From a virus, in IMG/VR virus record IMGVR_UViG_3300045107_000301, positions 1 to 45,141 of that record: DNA of 45,141 nucleotides; one strand, written 5' to 3'. Positions 2,202 to 23,723 of this stretch are shown in pieces (position 1 is the stretch's first letter; the number at the start of each line of letters is the position of its first letter). The position numbers and the translations under genes are program-made. The notes beneath the pieces were generated by a model, which was not told the origin of the DNA, ran no database searches, and saw nothing but the letters and a program-made list of their open reading frames with translations.

Positions 2202-3482
2202 TCAGCCGTGGCGAGCCGCGAACTCGGCGGCCCGGCGGAAGGCGCGGGCGGCGTACTCGCTGGCCATGTCGGGGGTGGAGTGGCCCAGGAGAGCGGCGGT
2301 CGTGTCGCGGTCGGCCTCCTCGTCGGAGAGGGTCGCCGCCGCCTTGCGCAACTGGTTGGGCCGCCAGTCGGGGATCAGGTCCTCGGGCCGGCAGGGGCCG
2401 CTCTTGAGGAGAGCCCGGTTGGCCCGGCGAATCGCCTTGGCCACGGCCCGGTCATAGCTCTGGGTGGTGTAGCGCTCGCCCGGCAGACGGGCCTTACCGC
2501 GACGGGGCGAGCGGCCATGCGAGGCCAGCCAGGCGTCCGTCGCCTCCCGAGGTGAGAACAGGCAGGCATCCGGGTCGCGGCCCGCGAGGAAGGGGGCAAG
2601 CGCGGCCTGGGCGGCCGGGCCGACGGGGACGAGCCGCCGCTTGCCGCGTTCAAGGGTCTTGTGCCGAGGTGGGACGTAGCACCAGATCATTGCACCGTTG
2701 GAGGCGGCCACGGCCGCGACCCGCTGCACGGGCCGGGTGTGGGGTACGGCCAGCCACTCGTCGGGGCGGGTGGACAGATCGCAGCGTCGCAGGCGGCACA
2801 CCTCGCCCGGCCGCATCCCCGTGAGAAAGCCCACGCGGATCATGGCCGCGAGCACCGGGTGACAGTGCGGTAGCGTGGCCTCCACGGCCCACGCTGGCAC
2901 CGGCGGGATGTCCTCCACTTCCCGCCCACCCTTGCCGAGTCGCAGGTTGGGGACCAGCCGCAGGGCCGCCGCCTGCTCGGCCGGCACCAACTCCCGCGAT
3001 GCCAGCCAGGTGAACGCGGTCTTGACGCACCCAATCAGGTGGTTGACATAGGTGCGGGAGAGTCGCGCGGTCCCGGGTCGGCGGCCGGGGCGGGCGAGGA
3101 GGTGGTCGCGGACGGACAAGAGGGCCAGGGGGCCGAAGTCGGCGGCAGCCTTGCGGCCGCACACCTCGACCACGGCGTCGAGGGCGGCCACGACCCGAGG
3201 TAACTGGCACCCCTCGGGGGCGTAGTAGTCGCGGGCGTAGCGCTCGTAGGCCAGCACGGCCTCGGCCACGGACAGGGCGGCCTCGGTCCGGGACGGTCGG
3301 CCCTGCGGGGGCGGGGTGGTTGCCCGCCCGGTCAGGTGGGCGGCGCAGTCGGCCTTGTAGGCAGCCAGGCTCTCGGCGCGGTCGCGGGAGTAGCGGCGGC
3401 GCTCACCGCCGAAGTTGGCCGCCCAGCGGCCGGTCGAGGTGTCGAGGTAGAGGTCGGGGACGGTCTTGCGGGGTCGAGCCAT
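2202..3482 (-). CDS. int: tyrosine recombinase (phage integrase)
   Basis: 426 aa. The start is the ATG at 3482 (MARPRKTVPDLYLD) with AAGGAGG seven bases upstream; the open frame reaches 3692 but runs through attP. An N-terminal arm-binding-like region and a SAM-like core-binding domain (about 90-190) precede the catalytic domain: TGMRPGEVCRLR supplies the first Arg, KTLERGKRRLVPVG the beta-hairpin Lys, NQLRKAA the box II Arg, LLGHSTPD the second His, and EYAAR the Tyr. Box II reads N-x-x-R instead of H-x-x-R. The gene is transcribed away from the adjacent attP core at 3600-3644, the usual arrangement for tRNA-targeting integrases. Confidence 0.95.
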   Translation of the reverse strand: MARPRKTVPDLYLDTSTGRWAANFGGERRRYSRDRAESLAAYKADCAAHLTGRATTPPPQGRPSRTEAALSVAEAVLAYERYARDYYAPEGCQLPRVVAALDAVVEVCGRKAAADFGPLALLSVRDHLLARPGRRPGTARLSRTYVNHLIGCVKTAFTWLASRELVPAEQAAALRLVPNLRLGKGGREVEDIPPVPAWAVEATLPHCHPVLAAMIRVGFLTGMRPGEVCRLRRCDLSTRPDEWLAVPHTRPVQRVAAVAASNGAMIWCYVPPRHKTLERGKRRLVPVGPAAQAALAPFLAGRDPDACLFSPREATDAWLASHGRSPRRGKARLPGERYTTQSYDRAVAKAIRRANRALLKSGPCRPEDLIPDWRPNQLRKAAATLSDEEADRDTTAALLGHSTPDMASEYAARAFRRAAEFAARHG

Positions 3483-3501
3483 GCGCGGGCCTCCTTGCCC
3501 G

Positions 3502-3525
3502 GTTTCAGGCCAACTGGCCTGAAAC
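3502..3525. repeat. perfect inverted repeat, putative integrase arm sites (P side)
   Basis: GTTTCAGGCCA (3502-3512) and its exact complement (3515-3525) are separated by two bases, immediately upstream of the integrase ribosome-binding site. The same 11-mer, in the form GTTYCRGGCCA, recurs three times on the other side of the tRNA core. A combined role as arm site and integrase autoregulatory operator is likely. Confidence 0.65.
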
Positions 3526-3599
3526 ACCGGGCGACGGCCGCACGCGGGTGATCCGCGGGACGGGACCGAAGTCCCCTCGGCGTGACGAGTTGTGGGGTG

Positions 3600-3644
3600 T
3601 ACACCCGACAGGATTCGAACCTGTAACCTTCGGTTCCGTAGACC
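3600..3644 (-). other. attP core: 3' half of tRNA-Arg(ACG)
   Basis: Read on the minus strand, these 45 bases give an anticodon loop CTACGGA (anticodon ACG, 3639-3637), the anticodon-stem 3' strand ACCGA, a five-base variable loop AGGTT, a perfect T arm (ACAGG, TTCGAAT, CCTGT), the acceptor 3' strand CGGGTGT and discriminator A. Pairing of the anticodon stem fails just outside 3644, and there is no D arm or acceptor 5' strand, so this is a tRNA fragment and not a tRNA gene. It is the expected identity block that restores the host tRNA-Arg gene after integration. Confidence 0.88.
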
Positions 3645-3750
3645 ATGACCTGCGGGCGGCTTTCGTCGCCCTATCTCATTGCCAAATAGCATCTTGCATC
3701 ATTAGAGCCGTCCCGGCTGTGGCACGCACAGTACCGCAAGACGCCGCACG

Positions 3751-5246: not shown

Positions 5247-5624
5247 ATGTCCACGATTTCCACCCTAGCCGCCGCCGCCGAATCCTGCCCCGTCGCCCGC
5301 ATGGCCCTGGCCGACGCCCTGGCTGAGGGGCTCCAGGTCACCGCCGAGGGTGCCTTGTGCGTCACCGTCGCCCGCGACGGGACCAACATGGCCTCCTTCC
5401 GCATCGGCGGCCGCCGCGTGAGCGTGCCGGTGTACGTCACCGCGATCTACCGAGCCTCCCGCCGGGTCGATGGGGTGCTCACCTGGCGGCGGTACGACTC
5501 CGTCGGCGACACCACCTCGGGCCACGAGGTGAGCGCCCCGATGGTGGCCCGGGCCAAGGCCATCGCCGCCGAGCGGGGCCTGCCCTACCGGGCGGGCATC
5601 CGCCACGGCCGGATCTGCGACTGA
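5247..5624 (+). CDS. unknown protein behind strong promoter
   Basis: 125 aa. The start is the ATG at 5247 because the promoter -10 at 5186-5191 places the transcript start near 5198, after the other in-frame starts. The N-terminal helix contains two Cys and Ala-rich repeats (LAAAAESCPVARMALADALAEG); the rest alternates strands (ALCVTVARDGTNMASFRIGG, VPVYVTAIYRASRR) and ends with a basic helix. Expression from the strongest promoter in the window suggests an abundant early or lysogen-expressed product. No family recognised. Confidence 0.7.
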   Translation: MSTISTLAAAAESCPVARMALADALAEGLQVTAEGALCVTVARDGTNMASFRIGGRRVSVPVYVTAIYRASRRVDGVLTWRRYDSVGDTTSGHEVSAPMVARAKAIAAERGLPYRAGIRHGRICD

Positions 5625-5641
5625 CCCCGTACCCCACCCAC

Positions 5642-5662
5642 GCCCCGGCCAGCGGCCGGGGC
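5642..5662 (+). repeat. intergenic hairpin, copy 3
   Basis: GCCCCGGCC (5642-5650) and GGCCGGGGC (5654-5662) form a 9-bp perfect stem with loop AGC, followed by AATTCTGTTCT. It is the third member of the hairpin family at 4202 and 4828, and the one most like an intrinsic terminator. Confidence 0.75.
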
Positions 5663-5684
5663 AATTCTGTTCTCTGGAGGCAAC

Positions 5685-6221
5685 ATGGCCCGCACGGACG
5701 GCACGGAGTACACGCGACTACGCCTGGGCCAGGGCTCCCTGGCCCAGGCGGCGGCACTGGCCGCATCGGCCGGGAACATCACCCAGGCGGTGCGGGAGGC
5801 GCTCGCCTACTGGCACGCGGCCGTCGCCCAGGCCGGCCGCCGCAACGCCGAGGAGTTCTCGCCCGAGGACTGGACCCGGCTGGCCGCCCTGAACAACCCG
5901 GACGACCCGCTGCCCAGCGAGGTGCGGGACGAGGAGGCCCGCTCGGCCGCCTGGGATTGGGGGCAGCGGCTCGCCCGCGACCTGCTCGACCAGTACGCCC
6001 ACCGGGCTGTCGTCCTGCCCGCTCACGTCGCCGATCGGGACGCCTGCCGGGCGCTGGCGGCCCGGGTGGCCAAGCTTGACCTCGCTCAGGGGTACGCGAT
6101 GTTCGCGGCCTTGCGGCACTTCTGGCGGCCCGAGAACATCACCTCGGGCGTCGGCGGCGGGGAGTGGTGGGCACCGGAGGTGTGGCTTGTCCCCACCGCG
6201 AAGGAGCCGCCCCGTGAGTGA
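5685..6221 (+). CDS. helical protein of unknown function
   Basis: 178 aa with CTGGAGG well placed before the ATG. It is predominantly helical: an N-terminal segment TQAVREALAYWHAAVAQAG, a middle segment ARDLLDQYAHRAVV and a Trp-rich C-terminus (HFWRPEN, GGEWWAPEVWLVP). The first 45 residues (RLRLGQGSLAQAAALAASAG then NITQAVREAL) resemble the strand-helix-helix order of an Arc-type antitoxin or regulator, but not strongly. Its stop is overlapped by the GTG of the next gene, starting a coupled four-gene unit 5685-7519. Confidence 0.72.
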   Translation: MARTDGTEYTRLRLGQGSLAQAAALAASAGNITQAVREALAYWHAAVAQAGRRNAEEFSPEDWTRLAALNNPDDPLPSEVRDEEARSAAWDWGQRLARDLLDQYAHRAVVLPAHVADRDACRALAARVAKLDLAQGYAMFAALRHFWRPENITSGVGGGEWWAPEVWLVPTAKEPPRE

Positions 6222-6657: not shown

Positions 6658-7022
6658 GCACGGACATTGACCGGGCCATTGTCCGGTCCCTGCGGCTTGC
6701 TTGGCGGGACGAGGAGGTAGGTGCTGTCCCAGGTGGGCGACGGCTCTACCTCCGCTGGACCGACGAGTCGGCCAGCGCTCCGGGGTGGGACGACTGGCGA
6801 TGGTGGGGCGAGGTGGATGCGGACGGCCGCATCACCTGGCAGGAGGACGCGGCGGACTGGTGGCTGGCAACCCGGGTTGCCGCGGATGTGCGGGCCGCCA
6901 CCGCCGAGGGGCGCTCTTCGGGCCGTCTGGTCGGTTGGCCCGTGGAGGTGCAGTGGTGCCGCCACGAACTTGATGGGCCAGCCGTGCGGGTGGCGGACTG
7001 GGCAAAAGAGGAACCATCGTGA
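6654..7022 (+). CDS. Trp-rich protein of unknown function
   Basis: 122 aa, coupled on both sides (ATGA at 6654-6657, GTGA at 7019-7022). It is unusually rich in tryptophan and acidic residues (GWDDWRWWGEVDADGRITW, AADWWLATRVAADV). The pattern of strands followed by a short helix suggests a small alpha-beta fold. No metal site, signal peptide or known motif is visible. Coupling with the TIGR02996 gene suggests joint function. Confidence 0.7.
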   Translation: MSTDIDRAIVRSLRLAWRDEEVGAVPGGRRLYLRWTDESASAPGWDDWRWWGEVDADGRITWQEDAADWWLATRVAADVRAATAEGRSSGRLVGWPVEVQWCRHELDGPAVRVADWAKEEPS

Positions 7023-7519
7023 TCGTGCCCCCCGCCTACCGTGCCACGACGCTCGCCGGGGAGGCCGACCTTTACCGACGGGCCGGCCTCCTTGACGCCT
7101 ATCTGGAGGTCCACAGCCTCGGCCTGATCCGTCTCGCAGGCGACGGCTTCGCGTGCGAGACCCGAGGAGCTTCCCCGGTCGTGGCTGAGTGGCTGCGACA
7201 GCATTCCGGCGAGGCGGCCAGCCTCATCGACGCCTGGTTGCTCGCCCGCTATTACGGCGAGGGGCCGAAGGTATTCCGCCCGACCTGGCGGCAATACCTG
7301 GCGCTGGAGCAGATCGCCCCGCAACTGACGCTCGCGGACTACGCCCAGCCGTTCCCCGTGATGGCGGTGGAGCTACCCGAGGAGGTTCGCCTGCGTCGGC
7401 GCGCAGACCACCTCGGCGGGCCGTTCGTGGCCTATATCGGCCGGACCTTACGCCGCCGGGTCCGTCGAGGCATCCGGCTGGCCGCCCAGGTGAGGCGGGT
7501 GCGTGCGACCGGCTCGTAG
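7019..7519 (+). CDS. unknown protein, last gene of plus-strand block
   Basis: 166 aa from a GTG overlapping the previous stop. Residues 10-90 are helical with LYRRAGLLDAYLEVHSLGLI and VAEWLRQHSGEAASLIDAWL; the C-terminus is strongly basic (TLRRRVRRGIRLAAQVRRVR). The last 88 bases overlap, in antisense, the 3' end of the minus-strand gene 7432-7890. Either both genes end in overlap or the basic tail here is partly the mirror of that gene; both starts have ribosome-binding sites or coupling, so both are kept. Confidence 0.62.
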   Translation: MIVPPAYRATTLAGEADLYRRAGLLDAYLEVHSLGLIRLAGDGFACETRGASPVVAEWLRQHSGEAASLIDAWLLARYYGEGPKVFRPTWRQYLALEQIAPQLTLADYAQPFPVMAVELPEEVRLRRRADHLGGPFVAYIGRTLRRRVRRGIRLAAQVRRVRATGS

Positions 7520-7890
7520 CGGACGGCGCAGGGGGCCAGGCCGCCCGCGAACTCGCAGCGGCCGAAAACCTGCAGGAGCCACGGCCGGATTGCCTCGGTG
7601 GCCCAGAGGAGCGGCCGGCCGTGCCCGCCGGGGTTGTACCCCCGCCCGACCGGCTCAGGCCCACGCCGGCCGCCTCGCCGCTGGTGCAGGTAGGACTCCA
7701 GCGTCCGATGGGAGCGACCGGCCGCCTGGGCGATCTGGGAGAGCGAGACGACCGCCGGCGGACCGGCCACCTCGGCCGGTGGGCCGGGGTGCCGCTCGGG
7801 GATGCCGTCGTCGTAGCGAGACGCGGCGGGGCGAGGTGCCCCGCGACAGGCAGAGGTGAAGGGGGAGATCGCCGGACGGTGGGGCTGCAC
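7432..7890 (-). CDS. putative helix-turn-helix protein, last gene of late operon
   Basis: 152 aa from a GTG with GGAGG seven bases upstream. Residues about 47-75 read as a helix-turn-helix (VVSLSQIAQAAGRSHRTLESYL), followed by a Gly/Arg-rich loop and a tryptophan-containing helix (LLWATEAIRPWLLQVFG). The first 45 residues are low-complexity and Pro/Ala rich. It overlaps the converging gene 7019-7519 by 88 bases. Position after the holin candidate suggests it is transcribed late, although the 172-base upstream gap could carry its own promoter. Confidence 0.6.
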   Translation of the reverse strand: MQPHRPAISPFTSACRGAPRPAASRYDDGIPERHPGPPAEVAGPPAVVSLSQIAQAAGRSHRTLESYLHQRRGGRRGPEPVGRGYNPGGHGRPLLWATEAIRPWLLQVFGRCEFAGGLAPCAVRYEPVARTRLTWAASRMPRRTRRRKVRPI

Positions 7891-8535: not shown

Positions 8536-8811
8536 TCAGCGGCCGAACTCGATCACGGTCAGGTCCGCCCGCCTGCGAAAGAAGCCGCCGCGGCGGCCGA
8601 AATCGATCACGGTCGTCTGCCGGGGCACGCTGCCCAGCACGACGGGCGGCGGGCCGAAGCGGCGGTTGTCCTCGAACAGGACGACCGTCTGCGGGGCACG
8701 GCCGCCGAAGGCAACCGGCGGCGGAGCGTTGCAGTGGCCGGCCCTGGCGGCCTCGGGCAGCCCCAGGAGCATCACGGCCAGGATCAGGAGCAGGAACAGG
8801 GTACGCACGGG
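8536..8811 (-). CDS. small exported protein with repeated V-I-D-F-G motif
   Basis: 91 aa from the GTG at 8811 (GAGG five bases upstream, giving VRTLFLLLILAVMLLG); an alternative ATG at 8829 overlaps the previous stop. Residues 1-24 form a signal peptide ending at ARAGHC or ARA. The mature part is a set of short imperfect repeats: APQTVVLFEDNRRFG, RQTTVIDFGRRGGFF and ADLTVIEFGR. A single Cys in GHC follows the signal. It is coupled to the upstream cytochrome gene and is likely periplasmic; function unknown. Confidence 0.65.
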   Translation of the reverse strand, partial: PVRTLFLLLILAVMLLGLPEAARAGHCNAPPPVAFGGRAPQTVVLFEDNRRFGPPPVVLGSVPRQTTVIDFGRRGGFFRRRADLTVIEFGR

Positions 8812-8828
8812 CACCTCGCTTTCTGGCA

Positions 8829-9941
8829 TCAGGAGGAGGAAGGCAAGTTGACCCACTCGCGGAACTCGGCCTCCGTGAGTGGCTTGGCCGGATCGGGCGG
8901 CATCCGTTTCTTGGGGTCGGGGTGGTGGAGCCTCGCCCATACCTTGACCCGCTCCGCGAACTTCATGCGGGGGTAGTCCGCGAGCGTGAAGCCGTGGTTC
9001 TTCGTGCGGTCGGCCTCGTTGTGGCACGCAGCACACCGCTCGGCCGACCCCTTCCACGCGGCCAGGGCGTTGCCATCCGGCGGCGCGGTGAGTAGCGGTC
9101 CGCCAGCCGGCGGACCCGGGAGAGCGCCCGCGGTCGAGCCGGCCCCGCTCGTCGTGACCTTCACGTCGGCCGAGGGGGCCGCGTTCATGGCCCGCGCCGC
9201 CTCGCGGATGGCGATCCCCTTGGCGATGATCTCGGCACTCCGCGCCGCGCCATCGGCCGCCTGCTGCGTGAGCTTGGCGTGGTCGCCGGCCGCCTGCCCC
9301 GCCAGCCCCTGCGCCCCCTGAGCAAGCAGGGACGCTTGCTGGTACAGGGCATTCAGGTCGGTATCGCCGTAGACCTTGAGAGCGGCTTCGGTGGAGTAGC
9401 CGTACTGCGTCGAGCCGGTCAGGCCGTGTTCGCCGAAGGCGGCGTAACTGGACCGCACTCCCTGTACGCGGTACGGTTCCCGGCCGAAACCGTCCCAGCG
9501 GAAATTGCCCGTCAGCCCCAGGGTGTTGACCCACTCCTGAAACTCGGCCGTTTCCTGGGCGCTGGCCCGCAGCTTGGCTTCCGCCTGGTTGCGGTAGGCG
9601 GCGATCTCCAGCAGTTTTGCCCGCCAGCCCGGGTCGGTCGGTTTGGGCATTTCCGGACCCTTGTCGCGGTAGTACGCCGCTCGGGTGTACCGCCACTCCC
9701 AGGTGGTCGAGGGGACGTAGTAGGGCTGGCCGTAGTGGTTGTAACCAATTGTGTACGCGGTCGAGTACACTTTCTCGCGGGTATAGGGGTAGCCGCCCGC
9801 CCACCAGAAGCCGTCGCGGTAGGTGTAGTCCCCGCCGACGTAGCCGTCGGCGTAGTCGCTCGCGACAGCCGGCGAGGGGATCAGGGCCAGGACCATGCCG
9901 GTCAGCAAGGCCAGGCAAAAGAGGAACGCGGCCAGTCGCAT
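8829..9941 (-). CDS. exported c-type cytochrome, monohaem
   Basis: 370 aa starting at the ATGA overlap with the upstream gene. Residues 1-27 are a signal peptide (FLFCLALLTGMVLALIPSPA, cut near AVA-SD). The next 90 residues are Tyr/Trp rich (GYVGGDYTYRDGFWWAGGYP), and residues about 190-280 form an Ala-rich helix. A C-terminal cytochrome c domain has the haem motif C303-A-A-C-H307, and Met347 in KKRMPPDPAKPL is a plausible sixth ligand, followed by the usual C-terminal helix (LTEAEFREWV). Protein would mature outside the inner membrane using host haem-attachment machinery. I know of no such gene as a standard member of a phage late operon. Confidence 0.82.
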   Translation of the reverse strand: MRLAAFLFCLALLTGMVLALIPSPAVASDYADGYVGGDYTYRDGFWWAGGYPYTREKVYSTAYTIGYNHYGQPYYVPSTTWEWRYTRAAYYRDKGPEMPKPTDPGWRAKLLEIAAYRNQAEAKLRASAQETAEFQEWVNTLGLTGNFRWDGFGREPYRVQGVRSSYAAFGEHGLTGSTQYGYSTEAALKVYGDTDLNALYQQASLLAQGAQGLAGQAAGDHAKLTQQAADGAARSAEIIAKGIAIREAARAMNAAPSADVKVTTSGAGSTAGALPGPPAGGPLLTAPPDGNALAAWKGSAERCAACHNEADRTKNHGFTLADYPRMKFAERVKVWARLHHPDPKKRMPPDPAKPLTEAEFREWVNLPSSS

Positions 9942-11848
9942 CACTTGCCTCCCGGCACGGCGGCCGGCTTGGGGTCGGCGAACTTCAACTCGGCCCGTGC
10001 CTTCGCGGCCCGGGTCATCTGGAAGGAGTAAGTCAGCGCCCAGACGGGGCGGGTGACGCCGGCCCGTCTGGCAATCAACTTGATCGCGGGGTCCTCGGCC
10101 ACGAACTCGCCGTTGTCCGCCTCGCTCGCCGGCCGGAAGACCGCCGCGAACGCCAGCCGGGCAGCCGGTGCGGCCACGCCAATGCCCACCTCGGCCAGCG
10201 AGGAGCGTGCATCGACGAGGTCGTACTTGTACCGCCGCCACGCGTTTGCAATCGCCTCCCCGGCCATGCGAGCGGCCAGTTTGGCATCGGCCGCCTTGCT
10301 GTCCTTGAACCACGGCCCTGTCACCCGGAACAGCACCTCGGCGTAGTCCTCGCGGCCCCGCCGGAACATCTTGGACAGGTCACCCCGGTACTGCGCGGCC
10401 AACCGCTCCACCGTCTCCTTGCGCCCCCGCACGTTGGGTTTCTTGACCAGGCCCGTGTCATCAAAGACACCCCCATCCTTGCGGATGAGGTCCTGCACGT
10501 CGTTGGGGGCCGGTTTCCAGCCATCGTCGCCGCCGAGGTTGTGGCAGCGGATGCACGAAACGGCACACTCCAACCGGCCCGTGAAGGGGGCAGGGATCTC
10601 GTGGTCGCGCACGATGTCGGGCGGGGCCTCATCCTGCAAGTCGCCGGCGGCGTTCGTCAGCGCGAAGCCGTGCAACCCGTTGGTCTTGACCCAGATGATC
10701 TCGCGGGCGGCGTCCTTGAACTCGGCCAGGTTGTAGAGCGGGTCCTCGTCCACGTCGATCGTGTCGTCGGAGGGGTCGTGGGTGACCGAGATCAGGCCGG
10801 CGAAATCGCGCACGTTGGGGTGCTGGAACAAGTCGATCCGCCGCGGCTTACCCGTGACATTGGAGCGAGCCAGCCCGACGCGGGAGTCACCGTCCAGCCG
10901 CTCGAACAGGTCCTTCGCCGTGAACCCGGCATCGACCTTGCCCAGCCCCAGCGACTCGAAGAGGGCGTCCTCGGCCGTCCCCCTGGCCGGCTTGCGGACG
11001 ATCCCCGAGGCGTCGTAGTAGAGCCCGCCGAAGACCTGGCGGTACACCCCCTTGCCCCGGATCGTCGAGAGGAAGCGAGCCACGAGGTAGCGCCACTCGA
11101 CGACGGGGGCTTCCGTATTGAGCAGGTCCTGCAACCGCTCATGCGAGGGTGCATCGAGGTGCGGGGCATTGAACCGCAGCACATCGCCGGCCCGGGCGGC
11201 GTCGGCCACCTTCACGCTCCGCCAGGTCGAGGTGCCGGCCGGCACCTCGACCGTCTCCTCGGCCTCGTACTCGAACCCCTTCGGGAACTCCTGCCCGCGG
11301 GCGTCCTTGCCGCCGGGCCAGACCTTCTTGACCTTGCGAGTCTCTTGCACGGTCCCGCGTGATTTGACGCGCACGATCTGCCCCTCGTCGGCCGCCCGCT
11401 CCAGCGTGGCCGGCGTCAGGAGTAGCGAGAACTCCGGGTTGAACCGCAACTCCTCCCAGACGCGCAGGAGGCGGTTGGTGTCCTCGGCCTTCGGCGCGAA
11501 CGACCGCAGGTCCACGAGCGCCAGCATGCCGCCGGCAACGGGGAGGGGACGGGCGATGTTCGGGTTGGTCGAGACGTAGTTCATGGTCAGAGCGACGACC
11601 TTTTGCGCGTCGGGGCCGTCGTTGCGCACCCAGACGTAGCGGAGGAACAGCGCGTCGGTCGGGGACAGTTGCTTGCGGGCCAGACGGCCTTCCACGTCGG
11701 CCAGCGCCGCCCGCGAAGCGTCATCGGGCACGGGCAATCGCTCCAGGGCTGGCGGCACGGCCGGCTTCTCCTGCGCGAACGCCGGGCCAGCGGCCAGCGC
11801 GGCCAGCAGAGTCAGCACGCACAGCAGGGCAGTCGCCACGACTCGCAC
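9941..11848 (-). CDS. large exported protein with one CxxCH haem-binding motif
   Basis: 635 aa. A clear signal peptide (residues 1-25, TALLCVLTLLAALAAGPAFA) precedes a long region with no family I recognise; C432-I-R-C-H436 is a covalent haem motif, followed by GGDDGWKPAPNDVQDLIRKDGG. Length is far above that of a simple cytochrome c, as in the multi-domain cytochromes common in planctomycetes. The TGA overlaps the ATG of the second cytochrome (9939-9943), so the two are translated together and may form one electron-transfer or haem-binding complex in the periplasm. The start is the only ATG before the signal sequence. Confidence 0.82.
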   Translation of the reverse strand: MRVVATALLCVLTLLAALAAGPAFAQEKPAVPPALERLPVPDDASRAALADVEGRLARKQLSPTDALFLRYVWVRNDGPDAQKVVALTMNYVSTNPNIARPLPVAGGMLALVDLRSFAPKAEDTNRLLRVWEELRFNPEFSLLLTPATLERAADEGQIVRVKSRGTVQETRKVKKVWPGGKDARGQEFPKGFEYEAEETVEVPAGTSTWRSVKVADAARAGDVLRFNAPHLDAPSHERLQDLLNTEAPVVEWRYLVARFLSTIRGKGVYRQVFGGLYYDASGIVRKPARGTAEDALFESLGLGKVDAGFTAKDLFERLDGDSRVGLARSNVTGKPRRIDLFQHPNVRDFAGLISVTHDPSDDTIDVDEDPLYNLAEFKDAAREIIWVKTNGLHGFALTNAAGDLQDEAPPDIVRDHEIPAPFTGRLECAVSCIRCHNLGGDDGWKPAPNDVQDLIRKDGGVFDDTGLVKKPNVRGRKETVERLAAQYRGDLSKMFRRGREDYAEVLFRVTGPWFKDSKAADAKLAARMAGEAIANAWRRYKYDLVDARSSLAEVGIGVAAPAARLAFAAVFRPASEADNGEFVAEDPAIKLIARRAGVTRPVWALTYSFQMTRAAKARAELKFADPKPAAVPGGK

Positions 11849-11858: not shown

Positions 11859-12236
11859 TCACCTCAACCCGAGCAACAGTCGCAGGCACTCGCGGACCCG
11901 ACCGCCCTCCTCCGCGAGCGGCCCGCCCTCGGCTCGCAGGTCGGCCGGCACGCACCACGACCAGTGGCCCGCGCCCCCCGACTGCCACTCCACATCGAAG
12001 GCCCGGTCGCTCGCCACGTCGTCCCACGCCAGCCGGATCGACCCGGCTGGGGTCACCACCACCTCCGGCTGCGGCAGCAGGGCGACGAGCCCATGCGTGC
12101 GGCGGTCGAGGTCGAGGACGAAGTCGCGGCAGGCACTCACGGCCGATGGCCACGGCCCCAGGCTGCCCAGATGGTCCCAGTCGTCCTCCAGCGTGGCCAC
12201 CGCGTCGAGGCGGCAGAGCAGGGCCTTCACGTCCAC
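11859..12236 (-). CDS. unknown protein between protease and cytochromes
   Basis: 125 aa from the GTG at 12236, which has GGGAGGTG well placed; longer frames run back through the protease gene and are rejected. Residues 10-30 (AVATLEDDWDHLGSLGPWPS) start with an acidic Trp-containing segment seen in small planctomycete proteins of the form DDWD, followed by a helix (AVSACRDFVLDLDRR), strands (PEVVVTPAGSIRLAW) and an acidic tail. No signal peptide. It is the only visibly cytosolic member inside the envelope cassette. Confidence 0.68.
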   Translation of the reverse strand: MDVKALLCRLDAVATLEDDWDHLGSLGPWPSAVSACRDFVLDLDRRTHGLVALLPQPEVVVTPAGSIRLAWDDVASDRAFDVEWQSGGAGHWSWCVPADLRAEGGPLAEEGGRVRECLRLLLGLR

Positions 12237-12253: not shown

Positions 12254-13150
12254 TCAGGCAGGCGGGGTGACGGTGTAGCCGCCCGCTCGCAGGGCATCGG
12301 CCAGCACGGCCGCGGGCACGGCCACCGTGGCAGCCGGGGTCGGCTGCGGCGGCGTAGGCGTCGGGGTTGGGGCGGGGACCGGCGCACCGCGCACGGTCCA
12401 GAAGTCGCCCGCCAGTTGCGGGCTCGTCGCGTACTCGTAGGGGATCGTGCCATATCCCCCCTGGCCCCACTGCGGCCCCCAACTGTTGCGGAACTTGAAG
12501 CGCCGCGCCGCATCGTCGTAGCCGACGATCAGCACGTCGTGGCCGCCCAGGACCGACTCTCCACGACCCGGCATGGGCACCACGCCCGTGCGAGCAACCG
12601 CGTCGGACTCGAACGACTCGTAGACCGTGAAACCGAAGATGAAGGGGTCGCCGCTGGCCAGGCAGGACCGCATCTGGTCGATCTGCTGCGGGACGCTCAG
12701 ATACTGCCCGATCTTGCGGCCGGCCGCCTGGTCGTAGCACTCCTGGCGGGGTTTGGTCGCCAGGAGTGCCGGGTCGTAGGGCCAGAGACTCTCATCGCAC
12801 CAGCCCCAGCGAGCCAGCGCCTTGAGCATGTCCCGGTTCGACACGCCGGAGTCCGAGTTGATGGTGCCCATCAACTGCCGGGCGTTGTAGTAGAGAAATA
12901 GCCGCGACGGCATCGAAGCTGTGGGGGCCTGCTGCTGTCGCAGGAGCGCGAAGACGATGTCGGCGGCGCAGGAATTGGGGCCGCACGAGCCAATCCGCCC
13001 CTGGTCCCAGGCGGGCTCGAACGGAGCCGGCAGCGGGGGGACGGCGAGGTCCACGGCCGGGGGCAGGGCGTACCGGATCGGGGCGGTATAGCGCAGGTCC
13101 CGGAAGTCGGGCAGGTCGCGGACCCAGCCGTACCGGCGGGGATTGCTCAT
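12254..13150 (-). CDS. papain-like (C1 family) cysteine protease
   Basis: 298 aa from the ATG overlapping the previous stop (13147-13150). The N-terminus has the WVRDLPDFRDLRY and LPPAVDL segments found in bacterial and viral C1 peptidases. Catalytic residues are all present: Q50 in WDQGRIG, C56 in GSCGPNSCA, H204 in GGHDVLIVGYD and N222 in FRNSWGPQWGQGGYG. After residue 240 comes a Pro/Thr linker (PAPTPTPTPPQPTP) and a 25-residue helical end. No signal peptide. Being in the late operon after the fibre genes, it may act on virion proteins, on the receptor or in lysis; the sequence alone does not choose. Confidence 0.9.
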   Translation of the reverse strand: MSNPRRYGWVRDLPDFRDLRYTAPIRYALPPAVDLAVPPLPAPFEPAWDQGRIGSCGPNSCAADIVFALLRQQQAPTASMPSRLFLYYNARQLMGTINSDSGVSNRDMLKALARWGWCDESLWPYDPALLATKPRQECYDQAAGRKIGQYLSVPQQIDQMRSCLASGDPFIFGFTVYESFESDAVARTGVVPMPGRGESVLGGHDVLIVGYDDAARRFKFRNSWGPQWGQGGYGTIPYEYATSPQLAGDFWTVRGAPVPAPTPTPTPPQPTPAATVAVPAAVLADALRAGGYTVTPPA

Positions 13151-13485
13151 CGGTCGTGCTCCGGGTGGTGCCGCTGCGGGCAGGCGTGCCCGTTGCGGCT
13201 CGGTACGTCGGCCGTCACGTCGGCCTCGTGATCGAAAGGGCGCAGGTGGCGCACCTCGGCAAGCACCTGCTCGAAGCCGCGAGCGACGGCGGCGCGATCC
13301 TCGGCGGCGATCCGCTCCGAGGACTCCCGCTGCGAGGCGCACACCCGCTCAAAGGCGGCGAGCGTTTCCTTGCGGTCGGTGGACTGCGTGGTCAGAAACC
13401 AGCGGGCGAGCGCAACGAAGCCGGCGAATGCCAGGGGGATGACGACGTATGGCCCCCAGGCGGGATTGATGGCAGTCAGATCCAC
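13147..13485 (-). CDS. membrane-anchored coiled-coil protein (holin/spanin-like)
   Basis: 112 aa from a GTG. One membrane segment (residues about 10-30, WGPYVVIPLAFAGFVALARW) is followed by a helical charged region (STDRKETLAAFERVCASQRE, then SERIAAEDRAAVARGFEQVL) and a His-rich tail (CPQRHHPEHD). This is the topology of phage proteins placed before endolysins in the class of N-in one-TM holins or inner-membrane spanins. It is coupled to the papain-like protease gene, which occupies the endolysin position. Confidence 0.6.
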   Translation of the reverse strand: MDLTAINPAWGPYVVIPLAFAGFVALARWFLTTQSTDRKETLAAFERVCASQRESSERIAAEDRAAVARGFEQVLAEVRHLRPFDHEADVTADVPSRNGHACPQRHHPEHDR

Positions 13486-13981: not shown

Positions 13982-15640
13982 TCAGGTCTTGATGATGAAA
14001 TTCAGGGCCAGCCAGGGCTGGGTGTTGCTGTGGGCATCGCCGCCGCCGGTGGTCTGCGTGGCCGGGCGGGAGTTGCCGGTGGGAGTCGAGCCTGTGGTCC
14101 CGGCGATGGTGTAATACTCCAGCGTGCCACCCGTAGGGCTGGCTGCCTTCTGCTGCTGGTGGCTGTGGCTGGGGATCTGCGTCGTGCCAAGCGTGTGCGT
14201 CTCGGCACCGCCCGCACCGCCGAGGGTGTCCGCGTTGGCCCCACCCGTGCTGGCGCTGGTCACACGGGCCGCCGTGCCGTCCACGCCCATCGGCACCCGG
14301 CCTCGCAGGTCGGGCACGTTGAAAGTGGTCGAGCCATCGCCCGAGCCGTAGGTGGTGCCGATCAGCGCGAAGAGGGTGGCGTAGGTCGTGCGGCTGACCG
14401 CCGACCCGTCGCAGAGAAGGTAGCCGGTCGGGGCCGAGGAGCCGGCGTAGGGCGCGATCATGCCCGTGGGGACGACCGCGATGGTGACGTTGCTCGCGGC
14501 CGTCACCTGCCCTTGTGCGTTGGTCGTGATCTGGGCCACCTGCGTGGCGCTGCCGTAGGTGTCCGCCGACACACCCGAGGAGGGCAGGTCCGCCGCGACC
14601 AAAGCGCGGAACGTCGGGGCCGCCGCCGCACCCGTCGAGGGGCCAGCGAAGACGCGGTTGGCGCTCTGGCTGGCCAGCGTGGCTGTCAGCGTGCCCGAGG
14701 TCGAGACGGGTGAGCCGGTAACGCTGAAGATCGAGGGAAGCGACAGGCCGACCGACGTGACGGTGCCCGAGCCAACGACGACCGTCGTCCAGGTGGGAAC
14801 ACCCCCGGACAGCTTGAGGAACTGCCCGTCCGAGCCGGCCGACAGCCTCGCCCAGGTCAAGCCGTTGCCGTAGATCATGTCGCCGAGGGCGGTGTTGACC
14901 CCGTCGAACAACCCCCCGACAAACTTGAACGGGTACGAGGTTGACGATGCAAGCGTCTGCCCGCCCCGGAACCTCGAGCCGTCGTAGGTGTAATAGGAAG
15001 CGATGCCCGTGCCCTGGTACAGCACAGCACGGCCATAGACGGGATCGAGCACGAAGTTCACATCGCGCACGCCCGTGCCCTTCAAACCGCCGTAGTCGCC
15101 TCCCCAGGGAGCCGTCACGAAGCCATGATGCACCTCATAGGTGCTGCCGACGACCTTCCACGCGTCGGAACTGTTGAGGTACTTGCTGCCCTTAAAAAAC
15201 TGGTCCGCTGCCGTCACGTACCCCGCCGCCGAGCCCGAGGCCGAGGCGAGTTGGCACGTCACCGTCCCCGTTGTCGCGGAGGTAACCGACCATATGGCTG
15301 TCGGGGCAAGCTGGAGCGTTGTGCCCGTCTGCGTCTGCGTGCCGTCGGATCGCTGCACCGTCAGCGGGCCGCCCGGCGCGTCGAACTCGTAGATGAGTTG
15401 GCCGCCCTTTATGCCTCGTAGGCGAAGGAGCACCTGCGTGCCCGTCGAGACGGCGTAGTTGTTCGCCTCGTAGGCCGGCGAGGACGTGGCACTCCCCGTC
15501 CGACCGGGCACGGCATCGGTCAGCGCACCCGTCGCCGGGGCGATGACCTTCTCTTTCCAGGAGTAGACGTAGGTGCCGCTGCTGGTTGTGCGGGCCGTGA
15601 TCTCGGCCCGGATCAGGTCGGCGGGGATGCGGCTGTCCAT
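13982..15640 (-). CDS. tail fibre with C-terminal phage tail collar domain
   Basis: 552 aa from the ATG at 15640. The N-terminal 280 residues are a Gly/Ser/Thr-rich beta region; the middle (SVGLSLPSIFSVTGSPVSTS, then GTLTATLASQSANRVFAGPS) is typical of fibre shafts. Residues about 400-450 are a tail collar domain: PTGMIAPYAGSSAPTGYLLC then DGSAVSRTTYATLFALIG and FNVPDLRGRVPMG. The C-terminal part ends with a knob-like Ser/His/Gln segment (PSHSHQQQK). This should be the receptor-contacting part of the virion. It lies after the tape measure, as expected. Confidence 0.88.
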   Translation of the reverse strand: MDSRIPADLIRAEITARTTSSGTYVYSWKEKVIAPATGALTDAVPGRTGSATSSPAYEANNYAVSTGTQVLLRLRGIKGGQLIYEFDAPGGPLTVQRSDGTQTQTGTTLQLAPTAIWSVTSATTGTVTCQLASASGSAAGYVTAADQFFKGSKYLNSSDAWKVVGSTYEVHHGFVTAPWGGDYGGLKGTGVRDVNFVLDPVYGRAVLYQGTGIASYYTYDGSRFRGGQTLASSTSYPFKFVGGLFDGVNTALGDMIYGNGLTWARLSAGSDGQFLKLSGGVPTWTTVVVGSGTVTSVGLSLPSIFSVTGSPVSTSGTLTATLASQSANRVFAGPSTGAAAAPTFRALVAADLPSSGVSADTYGSATQVAQITTNAQGQVTAASNVTIAVVPTGMIAPYAGSSAPTGYLLCDGSAVSRTTYATLFALIGTTYGSGDGSTTFNVPDLRGRVPMGVDGTAARVTSASTGGANADTLGGAGGAETHTLGTTQIPSHSHQQQKAASPTGGTLEYYTIAGTTGSTPTGNSRPATQTTGGGDAHSNTQPWLALNFIIKT

Positions 15641-15781
15641 CGGGCGGCCCTGGTGGCTGGGTACTCCCAGCCTGCCGGATCGCGTGAGTGGGTGTCGAGG
15701 CGAAGTGCGACTGCCTACCTTGCCACCTGGCGGGCCGCGCGGCATGCTGAGTGAGTCGCCCGCACCCATGAGCCTGCATCC

Positions 15782-16426
15782 ATGCCCCGCACCCTGACAG
15801 CCTTGCTCCTGGCCGTCGCCCTCACCAGCGCCCTGGCGTGCGGGGGCGTGCCAGCCACCAGCCTGCCACTTCCGTCGTCGCCCATCGGGGCGACGGAGCC
15901 GACCGCGCCCGGAAAGCCGGCCGACGCCCCAACCGCCGACTGGTCGAAGGTGGGCGATACTGCCAAGGTGGGTGACGTGACGGTGACGGTCCTGAGCGCC
16001 GGCCCGCGAGCCGTGTTCGGCCGTCGCGGTGGCGCGTACTCCGACCTTGGCAAGGGGTTGGGCGTGGTCGTCCGGCTCTCGAACGCCTCACCGACCAAAC
16101 TGGTGCGGTTCACCGGTTGGGGCGGCCTGGCCAAGGCCGCCGACGAGCATGGGAACGAGTACTCGTGGCTGGCCATGCCGGCCGGCTTCGGCCTCGACCC
16201 GGAGGTCCTCGGCCTGCTCGACAAAGACGCCAACGGCGGCTGCACCCGCTCGGCGTCGGCCGGCGGGCCGATTGACCTGCACCCGGGCAAGTGCTACACG
16301 ACAGTGATGCTGTTCGATCCGGTGATCGACCAGGCCACGGAGGTACGCATCACGGCCCCGGCAACCGCTCTGGGCGGCTCTGGGGCCGTGATGCTGCGTG
16401 GCTCGATCATGCGGCCGAAAAAGTGA
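15782..16426 (+). CDS. lipoprotein, moron-like insertion in late operon
   Basis: 214 aa. Residues 1-22 form a lipoprotein signal (LTALLLAVALTSALAC) with lipobox L-A-C followed by GG. The mature part, after a Pro/Thr linker, is a beta-sandwich of the DUF4352 or immunoglobulin-like kind: DVTVTVLSAGPRAVFG, LGVVVRLSNASPTKLVRFTG and PGKCYTTVMLFDPV. It is the only plus-strand gene between 7519 and 43731, and its stop converges on the tape-measure stop with one base between them. Opposite orientation and single-gene size fit a moron expressed in lysogens, possibly for superinfection exclusion. I see no convincing promoter in 15641-15781. Confidence 0.8.
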   Translation: MPRTLTALLLAVALTSALACGGVPATSLPLPSSPIGATEPTAPGKPADAPTADWSKVGDTAKVGDVTVTVLSAGPRAVFGRRGGAYSDLGKGLGVVVRLSNASPTKLVRFTGWGGLAKAADEHGNEYSWLAMPAGFGLDPEVLGLLDKDANGGCTRSASAGGPIDLHPGKCYTTVMLFDPVIDQATEVRITAPATALGGSGAVMLRGSIMRPKK

Positions 16427-16427
16427 G

Positions 16428-17528
16428 TCAGGTGCCGGCGATGAAGGGTAGCGCCCGGCCGACGATGCTTGCCCCCGGGCCACCCGGGTCGAACACGGCC
16501 CCCTTGGCGCTCTCCAGGGCCTGAACAAACCCCTCGGCGACGGCCGCGCGGATGATCGTCGAGAGCGAGATATTGCTATCGGCAATCCCCTTCACCTCAT
16601 CCAGCAGGCCGGCCAAATAGTCCTCGGTCTTCATCTCGCCACCGGCCTTGCCCGCCGCGACGTAGGCCGCCTGCGTGATCTCCTTGCCCAGAGCCTCGAT
16701 GCCCTTGAAGGCCGCGCCCACGGCCGCGAAGCCTGTCGTGTCGGTGGGCTTTGCCGAGAGCGCCCGAATCATGCCGTCCAAGAAAGAGACAGCACCGATC
16801 ACCTTGGCGAGGATGGCCGTGAAGAGGATCAGTTGCCGGCCGACCGCCTGAAAACCATCCACGATCTGGCGGGCCAGCTTGCCCAGGTCAAAGCCGCCAA
16901 AGGCTTGCACGACCGTCTGGAGCATCGCGGTGAAGCCGGCCGATAGCACGGTGATCACGTCGGCAACGATCTTGCCGGCCGCGGCGATCGCATCGAAGAT
17001 CGGCAGCAGGTTGCGCATCGTCTGGCCGAGCAGGATCAGGAGCGGCGAGAAGACCGCGCCGAGCAAGACGAGCACCACGCGGAACGCCTCGCCCAGCCCC
17101 CGCAAGATCGCGCCTAGCGCCGTGATGACCGGCCCGAGCGAGTCCCGCACCGGCCCGAACGCTCGCACGCTTGACGCCACGAACTCCGTGAGCACCGTGA
17201 GTACCTGACTCACCACGCCGGCCAGCTTGTCGAACAGGGGCCGCATCGAGTTGAAGGCCGTCAGGAACCAGCCGCCGAACTGCCGCACGGCCGCGGTCGT
17301 GGCCTGCAAGGCCGGCGCGACGGCCGAGCCGACGACGGCCGTCAGATCCCGCATGGCCATGCTGAACGCCTGCACGGCGGCGGGGTTGATCGCCTGCACG
17401 AAGGGCGTGAGCACGGCACCGAGCCGCTCGAAGGTGCCCGTGATCCCCTTGAGCACCTCGCCCACGCGACCGAGCGGGTCGCTGAACTGCTCCTTGAGCT
17501 TCGCGAGCGCGGGCAGTGCGGCCTGCAT
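16428..17528 (-). CDS. tape measure protein (short)
   Basis: 366 aa, almost wholly helical with long hydrophobic stretches (AFRVVLVLLGAVFSPLLILL, ADVITVLSAGFTAMLQTVVQAF) between Ala/Gly-rich amphipathic segments, as in tape measure proteins. It lies three genes after the tail tube and directly after the unknown tail protein. At roughly 1.5 angstrom per residue, 366 residues give a tail near 55 nm, short for a siphovirus. The C-terminal 60 residues are more polar and may face the tail tip. Confidence 0.72.
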   Translation of the reverse strand: MQAALPALAKLKEQFSDPLGRVGEVLKGITGTFERLGAVLTPFVQAINPAAVQAFSMAMRDLTAVVGSAVAPALQATTAAVRQFGGWFLTAFNSMRPLFDKLAGVVSQVLTVLTEFVASSVRAFGPVRDSLGPVITALGAILRGLGEAFRVVLVLLGAVFSPLLILLGQTMRNLLPIFDAIAAAGKIVADVITVLSAGFTAMLQTVVQAFGGFDLGKLARQIVDGFQAVGRQLILFTAILAKVIGAVSFLDGMIRALSAKPTDTTGFAAVGAAFKGIEALGKEITQAAYVAAGKAGGEMKTEDYLAGLLDEVKGIADSNISLSTIIRAAVAEGFVQALESAKGAVFDPGGPGASIVGRALPFIAGT

Positions 17529-17531
17529 GGA

Positions 17532-18587
17532 TCAACCCTCCAGGTCCGGGTTGGTCAACAGGAGCTGAAACGGGAACGATGGGTAGGTTGGCGGCCCCTT
17601 GACGCCCGCCTTGAGGGTCTGCGCCATGTAGTACCCATTGTCCCCGTACCACGGCTGCAGGTTGTGCCCCTGGGCCACCCAGTTGTTGTTCGTGAGCGTG
17701 GCCGGGTCTGCGGCGCGGGTGCGCTTGGTGTAAAGAAAGCGGAACTCGATGTCGCAAAGCTTGTCCAGCGAAAAGGATACGGTGTCACCCGTCGTGGCCA
17801 CCACCGACGGGAAGATGGGCGTGTACCGCTTGATCGCCGCGCCGACGTAGAGCAGGCTCCCAGCAGGCCACGTCATGAACTGGAGCTGGTTGACGTGGGC
17901 CACCCGGTTGGTGATCCACGAGTTGGCCGAAGTGACGAAGCTCCAGGGCACCATCATCCAGCGGAAGCGAATCAGGGACTGGTTGAGCAGGAGGCGGGGC
18001 TGGCCCGCGAAGGCGTAGCCGTCGGGGGCGGCACCGCCGTTGACGTTGAACACCATCTGCCCTTGCTGAGCCGTGATGTACTCCGCACCCGGCTCGTACT
18101 CCCAGTCGCAGTAGCGGTCGTACTCGGTGGCGTAGCGCGAGTCCACGGTCGAGCCGTCGGTGTCGTACCACGTCACCCGGGCCGTCGAGATGCGGTCGTT
18201 GGAGAGGATGGAGTAGGGGACCTGGTTGAACTCCAGGGTGATTTCGTATCGCGTGAAGCGCTGGAAGGCGTAGAGCGACGGGGCTTCCAGTTGGGCGACG
18301 GCCGCTTGCTGGCCGCCGTCGGAAGGGATGCCCACGCCCAGGATGTTCGTGCAGGCGGTGCAGACCAGCCAGGGGTACTGCGGGTGCGTGCGGGGTAGGG
18401 TGCGGACGATGCGGCCGTCCGACCCCGCCTTGGCGCTGCCGAGGGCCTGCGTGAGGAAGGTGGACAGGTCGTTGTACGGCACCGTCCACTTCATCTCGGC
18501 ACGGCCGCCCGAAAGCGAGAAGCCGGCCCGGCCAGTGCTGGTGCCGCTGTCGCGGTTGACCCGCTCGCCCCAGTCACTCTGCGCCAT
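17532..18587 (-). CDS. tail protein of unknown function
   Basis: 351 aa from the ATG at 18587 (GGAGGCG upstream); the longer frame runs through the chaperone genes and is rejected. It is strand-rich and aromatic (FTRYEITLEFNQVPYSILSN, CDWEYEPGAEYITAQQGQMV, RLLLNQSLIRFRWMMVPWSF). A single Cys pair (VCTACTN) near residue 75 is notable. Location between the tail chaperone and tape measure is usual only for chaperones, so this gene interrupts the standard order; a tail tip, tube-like or decorating protein is possible. Confidence 0.65.
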   Translation of the reverse strand: MAQSDWGERVNRDSGTSTGRAGFSLSGGRAEMKWTVPYNDLSTFLTQALGSAKAGSDGRIVRTLPRTHPQYPWLVCTACTNILGVGIPSDGGQQAAVAQLEAPSLYAFQRFTRYEITLEFNQVPYSILSNDRISTARVTWYDTDGSTVDSRYATEYDRYCDWEYEPGAEYITAQQGQMVFNVNGGAAPDGYAFAGQPRLLLNQSLIRFRWMMVPWSFVTSANSWITNRVAHVNQLQFMTWPAGSLLYVGAAIKRYTPIFPSVVATTGDTVSFSLDKLCDIEFRFLYTKRTRAADPATLTNNNWVAQGHNLQPWYGDNGYYMAQTLKAGVKGPPTYPSFPFQLLLTNPDLEG

Positions 18588-18840
18588 GGTCGCCTCCGTA
18601 GCGCGCCCGCCACTGGGCGTCGAGTTGTCGCAGGTGGTCGGCCGAGATGCCCATTGCGGCCATCGCCGCCCAGGCCTCGGCGCGGGTCGCGGTCGCGCCC
18701 AGGACGGGTCGTTGCGACGGCAGGGGCCGGCCCTCCTTGTCCCGCGGGCACTTGTAGTGCGTGGCCACCTGCCGCCAGGTGAGTCGGGCAATCTCCCAGG
18801 GACGCAGGTGCCAGGGCTCGCCGGCCAGTTCCGCGAACAT
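18574..18840 (-). CDS. tail assembly chaperone, frameshift extension (GT-like)
   Basis: 88 aa if started at the ATG at 18840, but the frame is open upstream to the slippery site at 18885-18891 in the gene above, so it is more likely made as the C-terminal half of a 239-residue fusion. It has a helical, Trp-rich sequence (FAELAGEPWHLRPWEIARLT, YKCPRDKEGRP). In siphophages a minus-one frameshifted chaperone sits between the tail tube and the tape measure, as here. It overlaps the start of the next gene by 14 bases. Confidence 0.72.
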   Translation of the reverse strand: MFAELAGEPWHLRPWEIARLTWRQVATHYKCPRDKEGRPLPSQRPVLGATATRAEAWAAMAAMGISADHLRQLDAQWRARYGGDHGAE

Positions 18841-18851
18841 GCGGTCGAGGT

Positions 18852-19292
18852 CTACGCTGCCGACTCCGTCGTCGGCGTCGGTGCTTTTGGGGCCGGCATG
18901 CCCTCCCGCACCGCCTGCGAGACGGCCGCCTCGACCTCGGCCGGCTGGGCGATGGCCAGCGACAGGAACTCGGCCTCGCTCAAGCCGAAGAGGAGCCGGC
19001 CGACCAGCAGCATGCCTGCCTGAGTGGCCAGGACCTGCTGGGCGAACTCGCCGACAAACGAGTAGCGGCCCGAGACGCAGGCATCCTGGTGTACCCGGTA
19101 GTGCTCGGCCCACTCGCTCGCGGAGAGGTGCGGACGCAGGGCCAGCACGTCGGCGCGTGCCCGGTCCTGCAACGCCCGCTCGAACTCGCTCATGACGCCG
19201 AAGTCCATTGGCCGGCACGAGTAGAGCCGCCCCTCGTGCCGCAGCACGATGGGCGCACCCGCCGACCCCAGCGCCGCACTCACGCTCGTCAT
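18852..19292 (-). CDS. tail assembly chaperone (G-like)
   Basis: 146 aa; ATG at 19292 preceded by GGGAGG. Residues 1-35 contain strands (APIVLRHEGRLYSCRPMDFG) and the rest is helical (LSASEWAEHYRVHQDACVSG, FVGEFAQQVLATQAGMLLVG), ending with an acidic helix and PAPKAPTPTTESAA. Codons GCC-CCA-AAA near the end contain the heptamer CCCAAAA (18891-18885), a canonical minus-one slippery site, and the minus-one frame continues open for 103 residues. This is the position and behaviour of lambda gpG/gpGT-type chaperones, which bind the tape measure protein. Confidence 0.75.
   Translation of the reverse strand: MTSVSAALGSAGAPIVLRHEGRLYSCRPMDFGVMSEFERALQDRARADVLALRPHLSASEWAEHYRVHQDACVSGRYSFVGEFAQQVLATQAGMLLVGRLLFGLSEAEFLSLAIAQPAEVEAAVSQAVREGMPAPKAPTPTTESAA
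18885..18891 (-). promoter_or_regulatory. minus-one ribosomal frameshift site C-CCA-AAA
   Basis: Read 5' to 3' on the minus strand the zero-frame codons are GCC CCA AAA GCA, containing the X-XXY-YYZ heptamer C-CCA-AAA. Slipping back one base gives CCC AAA AGC ACC GAC, which continues as KSTDADDGVGSVDLDRMFAE into the gene at 18574-18840. The upstream gene stops at 18852, so the product would be 136 plus 103 residues. Confidence 0.7.
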
Positions 19293-19303
19293 GCCGCCTC
19301 CCG

Positions 19304-19669
19304 TCAGGTAACTGCCGCCGTGAAGGAGCCGTTCGAGATGGCCTCGACCACGAGCATCGGCTTGTCCTTGACGGAGTTGTCGATGCGAATGCTCGTGATC
19401 CGGCACGGCACGGAAAACTCGGTGGCCGTGTAGATGCCCACGACCAGCGTGGCCTCCTCGCCAGCGGTGAACGGCATGGAGCCCGAGTCGTAGGGCCCCT
19501 TGCCCGTGATCTTGGCCTTCTTCACGCCGTCGAGGTTGGACTGGTAGCCCCCATTCACGAAGTTCGTGGTATCGGGGGGCTCGACGCTGATTTCCAGCGT
19601 CCACTCGCTCATCTTGAGAGCAGCAGTGGCTTTCTTGAAGTAGCCGTTGATGCCGCTGTAGAAGGCCAT
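19304..19669 (-). CDS. major tail tube protein candidate
   Basis: 121 aa, beta-rich: EWTLEISVEPPDTTNFVNGG, GVKKAKITGKGPYDSGSMPF and EEATLVVGIYTATEFSVPCR, ending in a strand. Size, strand content and position directly before the frameshifted chaperone are those of siphophage tail tube proteins. The DNA just before the ATG is GGGGACCTGAC, a weak ribosome-binding site, but the gene follows closely on the previous stop. No signal or membrane segment. Confidence 0.7.
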   Translation of the reverse strand: MAFYSGINGYFKKATAALKMSEWTLEISVEPPDTTNFVNGGYQSNLDGVKKAKITGKGPYDSGSMPFTAGEEATLVVGIYTATEFSVPCRITSIRIDNSVKDKPMLVVEAISNGSFTAAVT

Positions 19670-23493: not shown

Positions 23494-23504
23494 CGGTACC
23501 TCGC

Positions 23505-23723
23505 TCACCCGGCACGGGGCCGGAACTCGCCACACCATTCGGCCGCCGGCGTGACCACATGCAGGGCCAGCGGGCCGGTCGTCGTCGGTTTCAGCGTGCC
23601 GCCCGAGGGCGGGTAGCGCCGGCAGCGGCCCAAGCCGTCACCGACCCCGTCCCAGTAGCGGCACGTTTCGCAGGAGTCGGCCGGCGATGCGGGCGGACCC
23701 GCCGGCGTTTTCACCTTGGCCAT
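23505..23723 (-). CDS. small cysteine-rich zinc-binding-like protein
   Basis: 72 aa whose ATG overlaps the stop of the protease gene (23723-23725). Pattern C-E-T-C-R-Y-W-D near residue 18, G-R-C-R-R-Y-P-P-S near 30 and E-W-C-G-E-F near the C-terminus gives four Cys in the order expected for a small zinc or iron site. This type, CxxCxxW...C.R.P...WCGE, is frequent in phage and planctomycete genomes without a known role. It lies between protease and capsid in the head module. Confidence 0.72.
   Translation of the reverse strand: MAKVKTPAGPPASPADSCETCRYWDGVGDGLGRCRRYPPSGGTLKPTTTGPLALHVVTPAAEWCGEFRPRAG

Follow-up and report, generated by a model that had tools for sequence, protein, structure and literature searches.

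The window (the whole of a 45,141-base IMG/VR viral record) encodes two exported c-type cytochromes, CytA and CytB, within a phage late block, and we are almost certain that they belong to a conserved phage module in which a protease accompanies the cytochrome pair. After removal of duplicates, CytA and CytB were found side by side in 21 distinct loci from viral contigs and Gemmataceae prophages. CytB follows CytA in all 21, and in 16 of them a protease, drawn from five classes, is encoded no more than 3 kb from the pair.

Organization of the Late Gene Block

From the tail fibre to the holin-like protein, the genes lie on one strand in the order fibre, membrane-coil protein, C1 protease, 125-aa protein, CytA, CytB, small exported protein and holin-like protein. 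The main features of the window are as follows.

28644-30188, minus strand: large terminase, virion block
25253-28627, minus strand: portal, virion block
22060-23538, minus strand: capsid, virion block
20921-21589, minus strand: head-tail adaptor, virion block
16428-17528, minus strand: tape-measure-like protein, virion block
13982-15769, minus strand: tail-collar fibre, virion block
13147-13485, minus strand: small membrane-coil protein (single membrane segment, charged tail), overlapping the protease start by ATGA
12254-13150, minus strand: papain-type C1 protease, 298 aa (Peptidase_C1, E 1.6e-9; PHROG peptidase, E 2e-11)
11859-12236, minus strand: 125-aa protein between the protease and CytA
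9941-11848, minus strand: CytA, exported monohaem protein, 635 aa, GTG start, CIRCH at 432-436
8829-9941, minus strand: CytB, exported PSCyt1 cytochrome, 370 aa, ATG start, CAACH at 303-307, MPP at 347
8536-8808 (GTG start) or 8536-8829 (ATG start), minus strand: small exported companion, 90 or 97 aa
8063-8431, minus strand: holin-like protein (Phage_holin_9, E 0.0048; PHROG holins, E 0.009-0.017; these matches are weak and under the cut-off)
2202-3692: integrase

The genes for the two cytochromes and the third exported protein are in frame and free of internal stops, in agreement with the initial annotation, which had also placed both CxxCH motifs and Met347 correctly. It had described the cytochrome genes as overlapping by ATGA; the junctions of CytA with CytB and of CytB with the third gene are in fact one-base TGATG overlaps, and an ATGA overlap is found at 13147-13150, where it joins the membrane-coil gene to the protease gene. 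The block is close to the protease, as had been proposed, but the gene for the 125-aa protein separates the protease from CytA. The 460-aa (8536-9918) and 494-aa (8829-10313) frames of the mechanical open reading frame list are not genes. A shared start motif, GAGGTGNCCCGTG, considered as a tie between the cytochrome genes and the phage genes, was rejected, there being 4 sites as compared with 0.9 expected and none at the cytochrome starts.

Elsewhere in the window, a Rad52/Erf-type annealing protein (39248-40018) and a DNA helicase (36394-38538), both on the minus strand, mark a likely recombination and replication block. An open reading frame on the plus strand, opposite the late genes (15782-16426), has a secretion-type start, third-position G+C of coding type and no match in Pfam.

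Sequence Features of CytA and CytB

The G+C contents of CytA at the three codon positions, 0.70/0.47/0.90, form a coding-type pattern, and a simple hydropathy scan of CytA, CytB and the small exported protein finds in each a hydrophobic stretch at the N terminus and, after it, a site of the Ala-x-Ala type. The haem motif of CytA (C432, C435 and H436) is invariant in 44 of 44 relatives, as are, among others, R70, N90, S93, Y277, S329, R336, D358, E383, N390 and G443, and no conserved Met or second His is present in these homologues. Alignment of CytB with three phage homologues of 31-37% identity to it shows no variation at C303, C306, H307 and M347, and Met347 is the likely axial ligand. Conservation of this kind in both proteins indicates that the haem motifs did not arise by chance.

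CytA has no match among the families of Pfam or NCBIfam and represents a large protein family that is missing from both. Alignments of 7 and of 10 diverse CytAs contained no stretch conserved enough for scanning. CytB of the window matches PSCyt1 (PF07635) with E 9.8e-5 and 23.3 bits, as compared with a curated cut-off of 22. The CytBs of loci L185 (24.2) and L275 (23.6) also score above this level, and those of L145, L147 and L195 fall below it; the L275 protein is the most similar to that of the window in the N-terminal part. The CytBs of the window, L185 and L275 resemble PSCyt1 in retaining the CxxCH and MP motifs and in exceeding the Pfam cut-off but differ in that CytB is encoded by a phage gene of its own, has a long N-terminal region of low complexity and is paired with CytA. 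The PSCyt1 proteins of hosts have several domains and no known function (PMC5615132).

Distribution of the Module and Its Protease

Pattern searches for close relatives of CytA or CytB alone returned nothing from viral contigs, genomes, phages or plasmids because they were too narrow, as profile searches subsequently found the CytA family. When 294 genomes of the phylum, a set that had no positive control, were searched at E 1e-45, there was likewise no match. The closest relatives of CytA appeared in two of 95 genomes from the family of Gemmataceae genome G020, and a profile added two more. Searches with single homologues reached L195, the huge phage LR756511.1 (595,163 bases), and profiles reached further viral contigs, so that both proteins together, which the initial annotation had suggested looking for, were found in independent viral contigs and prophages. 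Its statement that haem proteins are not usual phage cargo is accordingly amended: the two proteins occur together repeatedly in viruses that are probably planctomycete phages. The 21 loci, arranged by the class of the adjacent protease, are as follows.

C1 protease: window, L195 (match below cut-off)
M10 matrixin: G035, G077, G115, L188, L189
Astacin-like or other metzincin: L257, L275, L273 (L273 match below cut-off)
S8 protease: L187, L271, L274, L276, L260
Trypsin-like protease, downstream of the pair: L185
Adjacent protease not seen: L186, L262, L264, L266, L269

The initial annotation had noticed the protease beside the cytochromes but had missed that an interchangeable protease is their recurrent partner. 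In a control of 107 TerL-neighbourhood loci (1,634 kb), the same protease queries gave 2 matches; these queries were taken from module loci, which restricts the control to relatives of the proteases found there. The L189 protease bears a peptidoglycan-binding domain (PG_binding_1). No signal peptide was seen in the window C1 protease by hydropathy scan; several other module proteases also lack one, and two have a membrane segment. A protease without a signal, accompanied by secreted helpers, would have the look of a holin-dependent, wall-attacking protease. In L257, two similar astacin-like proteases (5263-6198 and 6862-7818) are encoded in tandem upstream of CytA.

The loci come from genomes of very different sizes, L185 being a 408 kb contig and L186 a 146 kb viral contig. 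The latter also encodes a 1,083-aa protein that consists mostly of HTTDALL-type repeats (16211-19459, minus strand). In the unannotated record of the huge phage (LR756511.1, 474323-493711), the C1 protease, CytA and CytB are ordered as in the window. About 1.8 kb of other genes separates CytA from CytB in L269 and about 1 kb in L276, and the L187 CytB is truncated, with only its start present before the contig ends. A terminase match was obtained in 13 of the 20 records tested, some of these below the curated cut-off, and a portal was additionally found in the L269 record; the viral status of L257, L274, L275 and L276 is the IMG/VR call alone. The prophage-like region of G035 encodes a fibre, an M10 protease, CytA, CytB, an exported protein and a small membrane protein, and that of G077 encodes a membrane-coil protein, an M10 protease, CytA, CytB and an exported protein; the protein preceding the G077 protease is similar to the window membrane-coil protein. 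Reading of the translations identified the phage genes in both regions, which are also listed as viral in IMG/VR (L259, L258), and the G035 viral record has a weak terminase match. G115 carries the same block on a short contig of putative phage origin. The small companion of the window matches the V/Q/P-rich exported protein of other loci in position and composition and is its putative counterpart.

Relatives of the window TerL were found in Gemmatales and Gemmataceae contigs and, at similar identity, in contigs of Chloroflexi metagenome-assembled genomes; on this sequence evidence the host of the window virus is probably, not certainly, a planctomycete bacterium.

Fused Relatives in Host Genomes

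Each of the 32 host proteins examined joins, in a single polypeptide, a CxxCH domain and the MP motif after it to a CytA-like domain further downstream, and WD40-type repeats usually come next. These proteins of about 900 aa contain the same two haem domains as the phage pair but differ in arrangement: the host order is CytB-like then CytA-like in one chain, whereas the phages have two genes, CytA then CytB, without WD40. The middle, CytA-like domain has no family name. The occurrence of the fusion in 32 of 32 host proteins implies that CytA and CytB are partners, and they are predicted to work as a pair.

In a tree of CytA sequences, the host proteins cluster together (support 100/99), with the phage CytAs outside the cluster; the tree has several long branches and an arbitrarily placed root, and only this host/phage split is used. 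The CytAs of the window, L185, L186 and L187 cluster at 100/100 despite the greatly differing sizes of their genomes. A lone CytA-like gene without CytB, in surroundings of host type (L148; G031:C65:13134-14543), groups with the phage proteins and is possibly domesticated.

A link between host CytA-like proteins and caspase-like genes was considered and rejected (2 of 32 host loci as compared with 1 of 29 controls). As individual cases, the host CytA-like proteins L178 and L179 (G114) adjoin several exported caspase-like genes. Outside Planctomycetota, a plasmid of Neorhizobium petrolearium (NZ_CP123001.1, 4543-8016; L196) encodes, beside a caspase-family gene, a 1,157-aa c-type cytochrome with four CxxCH motifs and a CytA-like C-terminal end.

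Predicted Fold of CytA

The structure prediction for window CytA, with 6 alignment rows, reached a pLDDT of 50 and was set aside. The compact L189 homologue was modelled confidently from 19 viral sequences (pLDDT 84.8, pTM 0.85). This model has one structural neighbour above background, the β-sheet cytochrome c' of Thermus thermophilus (7ead), with Z 6.0 and an rmsd of 3.5 over 100 residues, the next best having a Z of 3.5. The aligned range of the model, 188-335, contains the CxxCH motif at 319-323, and the fold of 7ead, likewise a c-haem protein, is rare. A Z of 6.0 is too low to settle a fold, and the relation of CytA to β-sheet cytochrome c' is suggestive only. Foldseek with the CytA model found no significant match in the PDB or BFVD, and a profile match to NrfA (8bcx, E 0.039) was judged to be a chance one around CxxCH plus helices.

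The predicted CytA haem core resembles the cytochrome c'-β/P460 type in its single CxxCH and in the lack of a conserved distal Met or His. The type has a haem domain built on a five-stranded β-sheet, for which the suggestive 7ead match is the one pointer in CytA. It differs in its size (450-635 aa, with large added domains) and in having no sequence match in Pfam or the PDB. No Lys that could correspond to the P460 cross-link residue is conserved throughout; one column has Lys in 11 of 19 sequences. Members of this superfamily bind NO or oxidize hydroxylamine, and one has been described as a peroxidase mimic (PMC11928373).

Possible Roles of the Module

The reading that we prefer, to which we would give a little less than an even chance, is that CytA and CytB form a late, envelope-acting redox pair coupled to lysis by the protease and holin. 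Secretion of CytA, CytB and the companion by Sec would take place late in infection, and the host maturation system would supply covalent haem to both cytochromes. CytB, with His/Met ligation of the PSCyt1 type, would exchange electrons with CytA, the haem of which is probably open and reactive because there is no conserved second ligand and the haem core appears to be a β-sheet; the best structural neighbour, 7ead, is a five-coordinate-type c-haem protein. The protease would reach its target through the holin or by its own membrane anchor, replacing a classical endolysin, and together with the cytochrome pair would act in the envelope and weaken it at lysis. The genes, their joint occurrence in diverse viruses, the pairing of CytA with CytB, the linkage to proteases, the hydrophobic N termini of secretion type and the haem motifs are observed; the open haem, the electron exchange, the periplasmic action and the role in lysis are inferred. 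In favour of this reading are the constant order of CytA and CytB, the fusion of their counterparts in host proteins, the linkage to proteases, the holin-like neighbour in the window and the peptidoglycan-binding domain of the L189 protease. No peptidoglycan hydrolase was found among the window proteins scanned, which were a part of the total. Against a role in lysis, the L187 module follows a primase gene, the L188 module lies among head genes, 5 of the 21 loci have no adjacent protease, and the holin matches are weak. The module is like a phage lysis cassette of holin and endolysin in having an adjacent holin-like gene and a putative wall- or envelope-directed hydrolase, but the hydrolase in question is a protease, the class of which varies between loci, and the module further includes two haem proteins together with a small secreted one. 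We know of no citable precedent for a cytochrome pair that aids lysis.

Haem c is attached outside the cytoplasm. Because of this, and of the Sec-type signals, decoration of the virion looks the least likely of the three roles that the initial annotation had proposed, the others being an effect on host respiration and the sensing of membrane potential with the holin.

It is also conceivable, if unlikely, that the module carries out gas or radical chemistry, with a P460/c'-β-like CytA trapping NO or reducing peroxide with electrons from CytB and thereby shielding the cell during infection or interrupting a stress signal of the host. The structural neighbour, the known chemistry of its superfamily (PMC11928373) and the constant presence of a His/Met partner cytochrome next to CytA are in keeping with this, but the Z score is under the level that settles a fold, and the linkage to proteases is left unexplained.

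The usual job of c-type cytochromes is electron transfer, and during infection the two proteins might convey electrons of the host's respiratory chain or draw them off, either sustaining energy or lowering the membrane potential and triggering the holin, the gene for which would be the one that follows the block in the window. We consider this quite improbable, as CytA is unlike any respiratory carrier in Pfam or NCBIfam, the position of the genes is of late type, and a metabolic gene would not be expected in fixed association with proteases and a small exported protein. Phage auxiliary metabolic genes similarly include redox proteins, but this module is a fixed multigene unit tied to proteases, and CytA lies outside every described respiratory family.

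Very improbable, in our estimate, is lysogenic conversion, in which the proteins would be made in the lysogen and would either modify the surface of the host or keep other phages out. An integrase is encoded in the window, the G035 and G077 loci are prophages, and phage cargo genes are frequent beside fibre and lysis genes; the presence of the module in the 408 kb contig and the 595 kb phage, which are not known as temperate, as well as in prophages, disfavours a role confined to lysogens.

Chimeric assembly, or a host gene block misjoined to phage DNA, which the initial annotation had tied to finding the block in host chromosomes without phage genes, has a negligible probability: host genomes do encode CytA-like and PSCyt1 domains, but the block sits in prophages and viral contigs of independent origin that share its gene order, overlapping starts recur along it, and the phage CytAs fall outside the host clade.

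Significance

We suggest, tentatively and as a possibility that we hold to be rather less than even, that this is a new phage system, used by planctomycete phages for late attack on, or rewiring of, the host envelope and made up of an extracytoplasmic haem oxidoreductase of two proteins, an exchangeable protease and a small protein that is secreted. The same tentative estimate covers, jointly, a CytA with an open haem of c'-β/P460-like type that is served by CytB. The novelty would lie in the phage system, its parts (PSCyt1 and the protease classes) being individually known. In the open literature searched, no description of phage-encoded c-type cytochromes or of such a module was found; subscription journals and preprints were outside the scope of the search, and the module is apparently undescribed in viruses, an earlier report being possible.

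This gene set built on covalent haem proteins is kept in genomes as different in size as 45 kb and, in the huge phage, 595 kb. According to a 2017 paper (PMC5707555), no isolated Gemmata phage had been reported, and the module offers a handle on the phages of Planctomycetota. It also bears on the PSCyt-domain proteins, the function of which is unknown (PMC5615132), and the interchangeable protease beside the haem pair hints at an envelope chemistry that can be tested.
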